32,799 nt of DNA from Acidilobaceae archaeon (GTDB lineage: Archaea > Thermoproteota > Thermoprotei_A > Sulfolobales > Acidilobaceae), in NCBI GenBank assembly GCA_027080775.1, contig JALWPV010000001.1, forward strand, positions 1 through 32,799, written 5' to 3'. Shown in pieces: positions 8,262-25,970 of this stretch. The notes below the pieces were generated by a model. That model saw only the letters and a program-made list of their open reading frames with translations. It did no database searches and was not told the DNA's origin. Both the position numbers and the translations under genes were made by a program. Within the stretch, counting starts at the first letter, position 1; each line of letters starts with the position of its first letter.

Positions 8262-8665
8262 GCCCCGAGGCCGCATACAAGGGGAGGCCCCTAGTGCCCG
8301 GCTCCGCCAGGGGCAGGGCCGTCGTGGTAGACGCCATAAGCTTCTACGGCGACGTCGACCCCGAGACGGGGCTTCTGCGCGACGGCAGGAGCATCGCCGG
8401 GAGGATCCTCGCTGCCAGGAGGAGCAGGGGGAGCACGGTGGGCTCCTACGTGATAATGGCTCTCAAGTATAACTCGAAGGCGCCAGCCGCCATCATCATG
8501 GAGAGGGCTGAGCCCATAGTAGTCGTGGGGGCCTACCTAGCCGGCGTGCCCCTCGTGGACTCGCTCCCGAGGGGGCTCTTCGAGTCCCTAAGGGACGGCG
8601 ATGAGGTCGTGGTTGAAGCAGACGGCACCGTGAGGATCCTCCGCAGGCCAGGTGCTGGGGGTTGA
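8258..8665 (+). CDS. Aconitase X swivel (small) subunit (DUF126), probable phosphomevalonate dehydratase
   Basis: 135 residues; its TTG start overlaps the stop of the large subunit (TTGA at 8258-8261), pointing to translational coupling and 1:1 assembly. Visible family motifs: LVPGSARGRAVV near the N-terminus, the serine-rich GSTVGSYVIMAL loop in the middle, and APAAIIMERAEPIVVVGAYLAGVPLV. The swivel domain closes the active site on the large subunit; the serine loop is expected to contact the substrate. Length matches the archaeal small subunits, which are separate rather than fused as in some bacterial aconitase-X proteins. Confidence 0.9.
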   Translation: MSPEAAYKGRPLVPGSARGRAVVVDAISFYGDVDPETGLLRDGRSIAGRILAARRSRGSTVGSYVIMALKYNSKAPAAIIMERAEPIVVVGAYLAGVPLVDSLPRGLFESLRDGDEVVVEADGTVRILRRPGAGG

Positions 8666-8829
8666 GGGGCTCAGCAGAGTCCGCGCTCAAGGCGGTCAAG
8701 GCGGCCCTCATAGTGGTGGCGGCGGTGGCGGCGGGGCTGAGCGCGGCCGCCGCCATCGAGGTCAGGCCAGCCTACGCCCTAGGCGTCGTGGTCTGGGCGC
8801 TCATAGCCCTCGCGGCCGCTAGAGCCTAA
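8662..8829 (+). CDS. Small two-helix membrane protein, translationally coupled to the dehydratase
   Basis: 55 residues, too short for usual ORF lists. The TTG start overlaps the preceding stop as TTGA (8662-8665), exactly the junction used between the two dehydratase subunits. The product has a short basic start (MRGSAESALKAVKAA), a hydrophobic helix (ALIVVAAVAAGLSAAAA), a short turn with E and R (IEVRPA) and a second helix (YALGVVVWALIALAAA). No family recognised. The repeated coupling suggests a real gene of the same operon. Its stop overlaps the stop of the convergent wHTH gene by four bases. Confidence 0.6.
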   Translation: MRGSAESALKAVKAALIVVAAVAAGLSAAAAIEVRPAYALGVVVWALIALAAARA

Positions 8830-9050
8830 GGCCCGCGGGGGCCCTGCCTTATCCTGTAGGCCCTCTTGGAGTGCCTCTCGAGGAGGCCGAGCTGCTCGAG
8901 GCGCGCTGCGACCCTCCCAGCGCTCCTCGTCGACGTCCCCAGGTGCCTGGCGAGCTGCTCTACTGTGACGTAGCCTCTGTAGAGCCTGGCCAGGGTCTCG
9001 GCGAGCCTGTCCAGCTCTATCGTTACCAGGATCCTCCTGGGCGCGCCCAC
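8826..9050 (-). CDS. Small winged-helix DNA-binding protein
   Basis: 74 residues from GTG 9050 (the frame is open to a GTG at 9065). A TATA-like ATTTAAGC lies on the minus strand at about 9071-9078, so 9050 would be a near-leaderless start and 9065 would lie too close. The sequence is one winged helix-turn-helix: helix 1 LDRLAETLARLYRG, helix 2 VTVEQLARHLG, recognition helix STRSAGRVAARLEQLG, and wing LLERHSKRAYRIRQG. It is likely a local transcription regulator; the target is unknown. Convergent with the isoprenoid operon. Confidence 0.72.
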   Translation of the reverse strand: MGAPRRILVTIELDRLAETLARLYRGYVTVEQLARHLGTSTRSAGRVAARLEQLGLLERHSKRAYRIRQGPRGP

Positions 9051-19677: not shown

Positions 19678-19786
19678 TGGTCCCGCCGCGGGGAATCGAA
19701 CCCCGGACCACCCGGTGCCCGCGGGGAGCGGGCACGCCGGGCCCGTCCCACTACAGCCGGGCGCTCTGCCGCTGAGCTACGGCGGG
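19678..19786 (-). tRNA. tRNA-Tyr (GTA) with a 34-nt intron
   Basis: On the minus strand: acceptor CCCGCCG/CGGCGGG with discriminator A and encoded CCA (19678-19680), D arm GCTC...GAGC, anticodon stem CCCGG/CCGGG, variable loop TGGTC, T arm CGGGG-TTCGATT-CCCCG. The anticodon loop is C-T-G-T-A-G | intron | A, so the anticodon is GTA. The intron is 34 nt (19717-19750), at the canonical site after position 37. Mature length is 75 including CCA. The C1-G72 pair is the archaeal tyrosine identity element, agreeing with the anticodon. A TATA-like CTTAAG lies upstream at about 19829-19836. The intron itself holds a strong GTGCCCGC/GCGGGCAC hairpin. Confidence 0.95.
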
Positions 19787-23980: not shown

Positions 23981-24010
23981 GTGGCATGCCCGGGGCTTGG
24001 GGGCGGTCAA

Positions 24011-24020
24011 TTATTTTAGC
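24011..24020 (+). promoter_or_regulatory. TATA-like element of the KaiC-like gene
   Basis: TTATTTTAGC about 40 bases before the ATG at 24055, which carries its own GGTGTAGG site. This separates the gene's promoter from the divergent one at 23971-23980. Confidence 0.45.
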
Positions 24021-24054
24021 CCCCACGCACTCATTATTTCCTGGTGTAGGAGTC

Positions 24055-24807
24055 ATGGCTGGCAGGGTTAAGACTGGGATACCCGGTATGGACGAGATAC
24101 TGAACGGGGGCATACCCGAGAGGAACGTGGTGCTACTCAGCGGCGGCCCCGGCACGGGCAAGTCGATATTCTCCTACCAGTACCTCTGGAACGGCCTAAA
24201 GCTCGGGGAGCCCGGGGTCTTCGTTGCCCTGGAGGAGCACCCCGTCCAGGTTAGGATTAACATGTCGCAGTTCGGCTGGGACGTCAGGCCCTACGAGAGG
24301 GAGGGCACCTTCGCAATAGTCGACGCCTTCACCGGCGGCGTGGGGGAGGCGGCCAAGAGGGAGCGCTACGTAGTCAGGGACCCCGAGGACGTGGGGCTAC
24401 TAGTGGACGTGCTGAAGGAGGCGATAAGGGACGTAGGCGCTAAGAGGGTCGCAATAGACTCCGTCTCAACACTCTACCTAGCAAAGCCCGTGCTGGCCCG
24501 CAGGACAGTCATGGTACTCAAGAGGGTGCTGAGCGGCATGGGGACAACGAGCATACTCGTCAGCCAGGTGAGCGTGACTGAGAGGGGCTTCGGCGGCCCC
24601 GGCGTCGAGCACGCTGCAGACGGCATCATAAGGCTAGACCTAGACGAGGTCAACGGCGAACTCGTCAGGAGCCTGATAGTGTGGAAGATGAGGGGCACGA
24701 AACACAGCATGAGGAGGCACCCATTCGAGATAACAGAAAAGGGAATCATAGTCTACCCCAACAAAGTCGTCAGGATAGGCAGGACCTTCTCCATAAGCGA
24801 GGCCTAG
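24055..24807 (+). CDS. KaiC-like RecA-superfamily ATPase
   Basis: 250 residues from ATG 24055; the frame is open to 23986, but that stretch includes the promoter. One KaiC domain: [25 protein letters not shown], Walker A GGPGTGKS (residues 30-37), [16 protein letters not shown] with the catalytic glutamates of KaiC-type proteins, a Walker B strand [13 protein letters not shown], and SILVSQVS. C-terminal [23 protein letters not shown] is also typical of the family. Single-domain archaeal KaiC homologues are widespread and mostly unassigned; circadian function is not implied. Monocistronic. Downstream lies the structured gap at 24808-25349. Confidence 0.9.
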
Positions 24808-24825
24808 AGAAAAGCAACCGTAACA

Positions 24826-25235
24826 CCGCCCCGCGGCGCCCAGGGCACCCCCAAGCCCGGGCAAGCGAGAGCCCACGGGCCCCAGCGGAGCCCGCAGCAG
24901 AGACCCACGGGGCGGCGGGGCCCGCCTCCGGCGCCCGGGGAGCCTCCACGGCCTCCCCCGGGCCCGGTGGGGGGAGACTCGCCTGGGGCCACCGCCCACC
25001 CTGGGGAGAGCCCATGCAGGCCTCTCCCCCGGGGGGCCTAGCCCTGGTGAAGCTTGATCCCCCCGAGAGGCCGCTTCGGCCTACCCCGGGCCCTTCGGCG
25101 GTGCCCCCGCCGCTGTGGGTCTCCGGCGGGTCCGCCCGCGCGGTGCTGGGCTCCCCCGCGGGCTTTGGGGGTGCCCGGCGCCCCTTGTGGGGCTTGCCGC
25201 GGGGCGGTTGGGGGACTGCTTGCGCAGTCCCCGGG
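24826..25235 (-). ncRNA. Candidate long structured RNA, unassigned
   Basis: No gene is supported here, but the ends pair. CCGCCCCGCGGC (24826-24837) is the exact reverse complement of 25196-25207. Inside it 24843-24859 pairs with 25159-25176 (17 pairs, one bulged T). AGCCCA (24870-24875) pairs with 25147-25152. AGACCCAC plus GCGGCGGGG (24901-24908, 24912-24920) pair with 25115-25122 and 25105-25113. Side hairpins occur, for example GCCCC-TTGT-GGGGC at 25180-25193 and CGGG-TCCG-CCCG at 25126-25137. Outside the rod is a 9-bp hairpin at 25211-25232. Minus orientation is preferred because CCTTTAAACC (25257-25266) is placed as a TATA box and TTTT follows the rod. I could not find the conserved sequences of SRP RNA or RNase P RNA in it. 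Confidence 0.45.
25211..25232. repeat. 9-bp perfect hairpin beside the rod
   Basis: GGGGACTGC and GCAGTCCCC around the loop TTGC. It would be the 5' hairpin of a minus-strand RNA, or a terminator-like hairpin on the plus strand. Confidence 0.6.
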
Positions 25236-25349
25236 GTGGCTGTGTTGTCGCGTGTGGTTTAAAGGGGGGAGAAGTGTGGGGTGCCGTTTTCGTGGGTGTT
25301 TATGGTGGGATTAGATGGGTCTTGGCTAGAAAGGTGGGAGGGTGGGGGT
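25236..25349. other. Gap between candidate RNA and fumarase
   Basis: Strongly G-rich on the plus strand with GTGG, GGGTGG and GGGGGG runs and a drop in C. It holds the TATA-like element at 25257-25266 and the untranslated 3' flank of the fumarase operon, whose minus-strand copy contains a short T-run (CCTTTCTAG). No ORF is supported. Confidence 0.35.
25257..25266 (-). promoter_or_regulatory. TATA-like element for the candidate RNA
   Basis: Minus-strand CCTTTAAACC, 25-30 bases before the 5' hairpin of the proposed transcript. The nearest other gene on this strand (fumarase beta) ends upstream at 25350, so the element has no protein gene to serve. Confidence 0.35.
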
Positions 25350-25970
25350 TTAGGGTATGGGCTTCTTGAGGAGCTCCTCTACTATGGCCTGGGCGTTGTT
25401 CATTACCTCGTTCATGCGTTCTGCGTAGTAGTTGCGGCCGGTCGTGTCTATGGTTATTGTTAGGGGGCCGAAGTCCTCGACCTCGAAGACCCAGAGGGCC
25501 TCGGGTATGCCTAGCTCGTCTAGCCAGTAGACGTCCACGACTCTCTTGATGGCGTTAGCCGCCAGCGCCCCTGCGCCCCCGGTGAATACCGCGTAGACCG
25601 CCTTGTACTTCTTCATCGCCTCGGCGGTCTTCTCGCCCATCCCGCCCTTGCCTACTACCATCTTTATGCCGGTCTTCTCTATGAACTCGGCCTCGACGCT
25701 CTCCATCCTCATGCTCGTCGTGGGCCCGGCCGCCCTTATCTCCCAGGTGCCGTCGGGCCTCTTCCTGGCTACGGGGCCGCAGTGGTAGAGGACTAGGCCC
25801 CTCAGGTCTATGGGTAGCCTCTCGCCCTTCTCGATCGTCTCCAACACCTTCTTGTGGGCCTCGTCCCTCGCGGTCACCACTATCCCGGAGACGTAGACTA
25901 TATCGCCAACCCTGAGCCTCTCAACGTCCTCGTCGCTCAGGGGGGTCCTGAGCCTGTACTCGGCCACCAC
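25350..25970 (-). CDS. Class I fumarase, beta (C-terminal) subunit
   Basis: 206 residues, ATG/GTG-type start three bases after the alpha-subunit stop. Family motifs: LRTPLSDEDVERLRVGDIVYVSG, YHCGPVARK, AAGPTTSMRME, the catalytic-region KGGMGEKTAEAM, and VFEVEDFGPLTITIDTTGRNYY. With the alpha subunit it forms an oxygen-sensitive Fe-S hydro-lyase converting fumarate and malate in the citric acid cycle. The split alpha/beta form is usual in archaea and anaerobes. A tartrate dehydratase is the close alternative and cannot be fully excluded. Confidence 0.93.
   Translation of the reverse strand: MVAEYRLRTPLSDEDVERLRVGDIVYVSGIVVTARDEAHKKVLETIEKGERLPIDLRGLVLYHCGPVARKRPDGTWEIRAAGPTTSMRMESVEAEFIEKTGIKMVVGKGGMGEKTAEAMKKYKAVYAVFTGGAGALAANAIKRVVDVYWLDELGIPEALWVFEVEDFGPLTITIDTTGRNYYAERMNEVMNNAQAIVEELLKKPIP

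Follow-up and report, generated by a model that had tools for sequence, protein, structure and literature searches.

A candidate rod-shaped structured RNA downstream of the fumarase beta gene in two genera of Acidilobaceae

RESULTS

Gene content of the locus

The stretch of DNA analyzed here, called the window throughout (32,799 nucleotides), belongs to a genome that we label G000. G001 and G003 are genomes of the same genus, and G004 and G017 belong to a second genus; the window, G003, G004, and G017 all fall within the GTDB family Acidilobaceae, and the species concerned are uncultured hyperthermophilic archaea. The gap under study is bounded by the end of a KaiC-like ATPase gene on the plus strand (24807) and by the end of the fumarase beta gene on the minus strand (25350), and no recognized gene was found between them. 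The features assigned to the locus are listed below by window position.

23986..24807, plus strand: KaiC-like ATPase gene, convergent neighbor (PF06745, E 8e-89), in this place in the window's genus only
24810..24813, minus strand: short T-run, a possible but weak transcript end
24825..25208, minus strand: core of the predicted rod-shaped RNA, 384 nt, closed by a perfect terminal helix of 13 bp (inverted arms, folds, and syntenic rods in G003, G004, and G017)
24958..24968, minus strand: side hairpin of the 3' arm, ACCGGGCCCGG, kept in 4/4 complete rods
25180..25193, minus strand: side hairpin of the 5' arm, GCCCCACAAGGGGC, with the counterpart GCCCCCCATAAGGGGGC in G003
25211..25232, minus strand: 5' hairpin GGGGACUGC-GCAA-GCAGUCCCC with a GNRA loop (fold; sequences of G003 and G001)
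25258..25264, minus strand: TATA box CTTTAAA (score 10.1 with a tRNA matrix from the same genome)
25350..25970, minus strand: fumarase beta subunit gene, upstream neighbor on the strand of the rod, conserved (PF05683, E 7e-48; orthologues)

A coding reading of the gap was rejected, as no Pfam family was matched in it, nor by either of the two overlapping open reading frames tested. Elsewhere in the window, a tRNA-Tyr gene of 106 nt (19681-19786, minus strand) exceeds the length of a plain tRNA, and therefore it likely carries an intron.

Fold and stability of the rod

Two pairs of inverted arms frame the structure, an outer one that is perfect over 13 nt (24825-24837 / 25196-25208) and an inner one of 20 nt matching at 85% (24835-24854 / 25165-25184). 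Read on the minus strand, 25208-24825 pairs with itself nearly end to end, and the long rod that results contains minor loops. For 24800-25280, the minus-strand fold reaches -334.8 kcal/mol, whereas dinucleotide shuffles of it give -280.0 +/- 5.8 (z -9.4; 0/100 shuffles), and the plus strand of this region gives a z of -4.3; for the trimmed rod the values are -8.8 in sense and -6.7 in antisense. By stability per base, the rod ranks first among 3,847 windows covering 634 kb of G000 (35% of the genome), and no second rod was detected in this folded fraction. Its G+C content of about 0.8 contributes to this stability, and after regression on G+C the z among the same 3,847 windows is only -2.7. 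The sequence-only reading that drew attention to this gap had claimed complementary ends enclosing nested helices. This claim held, with perfect end arms of 13 nt, and the helices that it listed (17, 6, and 17 pairs) were approximate and right in kind.

The scan of G000 also returned two unrelated stretches. On contig C11, at approximately 8520-9020 (locus L261, ~8641), nested long inverted repeats that include a perfect 23-nt pair (CATATCTGATGGTGTTTGATATC / GATATCAAACACCATCAGATATG) surround an apparent tRNA 3'-end fragment; after correction for G+C, no other fold in the scanned part of the genome is stronger. On contig C28, at approximately 109640-110140 (locus L290, ~9761), a strong fold with the stem TCTCCAGTGGAA / TTCCACTGGAG differs between strands (-210.7 vs -168.1 kcal/mol); this stretch may be coding or may be another RNA.

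Promoter and transcript ends

Sequences upstream of 25 G000 tRNA genes served to build a TATA matrix. With this matrix, the box between fumarase beta and the rod scores within the top range of the genome's own tRNA promoters, a level reached by only 12 sites in the 65,584 positions of the window. A box lies between the two at the same place in G001 (10.1) and G003 (10.3). From the usual TATA spacing of 25 to 27 nt, transcription would be expected to start near 25235. Thus, the TATA-like box proposed in the earlier reading held, with a tRNA-promoter-like score. Its T-run held only in part, being present at the expected end but short and weak.

Rods in related genomes

Syntenic rods of 334 to 384 nt were found in four species of two Acidilobaceae genera, always on the fumarase beta strand, 3' of that gene and within about 150 nt of its stop codon in both genera. 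G003 has the same gene order, with the KaiC-like gene adjoining the rod, and a 334-nt rod (z -11.5) occupies the gap between the same two genes, accompanied by its own TATA box and by a GNRA hairpin with a different stem and the same GCAA loop. In G001, a fifth species, the promoter, a hairpin, and the start of a GC-rich stretch are present before the contig end cuts the rod. In the second genus, the rods of G004 (348 nt, z -20.5) and G017 (346 nt, z -11.6) directly follow fumarase beta, and the KaiC-like gene lies on a different contig. We take the contigs carrying these two rods to be JALWOJ010000162.1 and JALWTO010000050.1, respectively, both from Acidilobaceae. The fumarase beta gene of G004 is either frameshifted or misassembled, since it was matched in two pieces (C162:51797-52397; loci L017 and L033).

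Other Acidilobaceae genera possess fumarase beta without a rod 3' of the gene, and a blastn search of 48 family genomes with the G004 rod as the query gave no further match. Furthermore, no comparable rod turned up when essentially the whole G016 genome was scanned by folding; the candidates inspected there were 5S-rRNA-like, tRNA-bearing, or mostly open reading frame, and G+C-rich ones at contig ends remained unidentified. At this locus at any rate, the rod is therefore lineage-restricted, and this distribution argues against a broadly essential role. The fumarase tree resolved too poorly to tell whether the two genera with rods form a sister pair.

Conservation of structure over sequence

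Between G000 and G003, the DNA of the flanking genes is about 80% identical, whereas blastn aligns the rod over only 28 nt, centered on the side hairpin of the 3' arm. This hairpin, with the consensus ACCGGGCCYGG, is the sole sequence element common to all four complete rods; in G017 its version is ACCGGGCCTGG, in which the pair is retained as G-U. With 20% of its sites substituted at random, the G000 rod would lose stability, from -308 kcal/mol to approximately -202, while the G003 rod, despite its divergence and its shorter length, folds at -260 kcal/mol.

In the consensus of G004 and G017, 20 of the 101 shared pairs have changed on both sides in a compensatory manner. Slid controls gave 0-4, and none of 500 shuffles reached the observed count. 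It is important to consider that this test rests on one species pair only, from which the structure itself was derived. Additionally, in a fold-back alignment that scored both strands alike, G-U outnumbered A-C on the proposed strand (40:16, p 0.0018), which speaks for an RNA on that strand. The bias comes mainly from the second genus (25:5); in the window's genus, the count of 15:11 (8:5 and 7:6) is not significant alone.

Comparison with known RNAs and mobile elements

At curated cutoffs, Rfam identified nothing in the rod, and matches below them were at chance level. SRP models gave no match up to E 10 with the rod of G000 or that of G004, and the RNase P RNA model (RF00373) left the rod unmatched. 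RNase P RNA was located elsewhere in G000 (C28:182477-182800), and separate SRP sequences exist away from the rod in G000, G003, G004, and G017. In G000, a query with the G003 SRP locus placed it on contig C72, at the contig end (locus L154, 1501-1650). RF01857 finds no SRP RNA in this 99.9%-complete genome because the contig end cuts the gene. Both identities, SRP RNA and RNase P RNA, were thus rejected. No ribozyme family was matched in the rod, and no such RNA was described in the open-access literature searched.

A dispersed inverted repeat, such as a MITE or foldback element, was also rejected, since blastn against the whole genome found a single copy of the rod in G000. Cross-hits of 24-34 nt were short G+C-rich matches elsewhere, with the exception of the G003 hit, which is the orthologous rod. 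Phage records and IMG/VR (a single query each, with a second-genus rod) and plasmid records (a single query, with the window's rod) gave no match.

The earlier reading had seen no SRP or RNase P core in the gap, which held, as both RNAs lie elsewhere and no Rfam family was matched. It had named an inverted repeat present at many loci as grounds for refutation, and this is not what the single-copy rod represents. Furthermore, it had pointed to the same gap in related genomes and to covariation: position and promoter are conserved in the sister species, and compensatory changes were found between G004 and G017. Its overall claim, an undescribed structured minus-strand RNA with its own promoter, is therefore supported, although the transcript itself remains inferred.

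A possible bulge-helix-bulge in the second genus

The base of the rods in G004 and G017 reads ACG-CGGG-AAA-CC over GG-CCCG-GGA-CGT, that is, a 4-bp helix in which each strand carries one 3-nt bulge, placed 3' of the paired bases. These letters are invariant between the two species, and the helix outside the motif covaries. The archaeal splicing endonuclease has as its substrate a 4-bp helix of this kind, with two 3-nt bulges (PMC4090602), and Thermoproteus tenax circularizes its SRP RNA through a bulge-helix-bulge (PMC4731332). In the second genus, the tRNA splicing endonuclease would thus probably cut at this motif and excise the enclosed rod, which could then be closed into a circle by RtcB. 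This circular RNA is no more than a lead inferred from sequence alone, without RNA-seq data. An extra G beside the motif also permits a drawing with a 3x1 internal loop, and motifs this short can arise by chance. At the base of the G000 and G003 rods there is no bulge-helix-bulge, only chance-like matches; we therefore infer that a linear RNA is more likely than a circle in the window's genus.

DISCUSSION

The rod, its conserved place, its compensatory evolution, the strand bias of its wobble pairs, a tRNA-like promoter, and one conserved hairpin are all shown by sequence. On these grounds, we consider it very likely that the locus encodes a conserved structured RNA. In the window's genus, the locus is likely an RNA gene of its own, with the transcript inferred from sequence. 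The explanation that we favor, with moderate confidence, is a stable, single-copy noncoding RNA with its own promoter and a stiff rod shape; its transcript and function are inferences. In this explanation, a minus-strand gene would be transcribed from its own promoter into a noncoding RNA of about 385-430 nt, which would fold into a stiff rod, paired over almost its whole length and bearing a few side hairpins. One or more proteins would use this RNA as their scaffold, reading the ACCGGGCCCGG hairpin and the rod shape and not the sequence. The retention of the shape together with one short hairpin suggests such a scaffold, or a dimer formed through the palindrome, but this is an inference with no direct evidence, and we hold the scaffold role to be rather more doubtful than probable.

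The rival that deserves most attention is that no separate RNA exists and that the rod belongs to the fumarase mRNA as a 3' structure, acting as a stabilizer against the 3'-5' exosome, a processing signal, or a terminator. The constant position of the rod on the fumarase strand, close to the stop codon in both genera, favors this reading. However, in the window's genus a TATA box of tRNA-gene strength intervenes in each of the three species, a rod of 380 nt that preserves a side hairpin far exceeds what termination or end protection needs, and the same fumarase occurs without a rod in other genera, so that we regard it as unlikely. Less probable still, and in our view very unlikely, is a long DNA palindrome, a foldback or cruciform left behind by a mobile element, with its arms kept matched by DNA repair or gene conversion and not by RNA function. 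Both strands do fold well, the sequence turns over very fast with its symmetry retained, and the wobble bias falls short of significance in the window's genus. On the contrary, G-U prevails over A-C by 25:5 in the second genus, side hairpins and bulges confined to one arm are conserved, and the element is a single copy at a fixed locus, without phage or plasmid matches and with a promoter upstream. An SRP RNA in derived or permuted form, or some other housekeeping RNA already known, would explain the length and rod shape, which resemble those of archaeal SRP RNA, and the silence of RF01857 in G000. This possibility is all but excluded, given that SRP RNA lies elsewhere in G000, G003, G004, and G017, that RNase P RNA lies on C28, and that neither gave a match even at E 10.

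Starting from the preferred reading of an independent noncoding RNA, a bolder one is possible, although we hold it to be rather unlikely. The locus may encode a viroid-shaped chromosomal RNA that is circularized by the tRNA splicing machinery in one genus and linear in a related genus. It would represent a new class of ribonucleoprotein RNA in archaea, one selected for its rod form and not for its sequence, and perhaps dimerizing through the palindromic CCGGGCCCGG hairpin. This joint claim also depends on an inferred transcript.

Apart from rRNA, SRP RNA, and RNase P RNA, archaea have few known RNAs that are both large and structured. No known family fits the rod, which makes it a candidate for a new RNA family and, more broadly, one more large structured noncoding RNA. 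If this is true, the family would be invisible to sequence searches and to Rfam, and scans that start from structure, in gaps anchored by conserved neighbors, might reveal more such RNAs; the rod gives a concrete locus for testing.

Several known systems resemble the rod in part. Archaeal SRP RNA (RF01857) is likewise rod-like and 300-400 nt long and has a TATA box of its own, and the SRP RNA of T. tenax, permuted and circular (PMC4731332), recalls the bulge-helix-bulge at the base of the second-genus rods; however, the rod matches no SRP model, and SRP RNA is separate in the same genomes. The archaeal circles produced through bulge-helix-bulge motifs, from pre-rRNA and tRNA introns (PMC4090602, PMC12558985), share with G004 and G017 the 4-bp helix and two 3-nt bulges, but the enclosed rod is neither rRNA nor the intron of a known gene, and the window's rod lacks the motif. 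Viroids and viroid-like RNAs are rod-like, almost fully paired, and of similar length, and the rod is possibly circular in one genus; in contrast to them, it is a chromosomal gene at a fixed locus, with a promoter, no ribozyme matched, and vertical inheritance. Finally, unlike the large orphan bacterial RNAs of the OLE type (PMC9723947), the rod is archaeal, forms a single rod and not an ornate fold, and conserves very little primary sequence, while it shares with them a large, conserved structure whose function is still unassigned.
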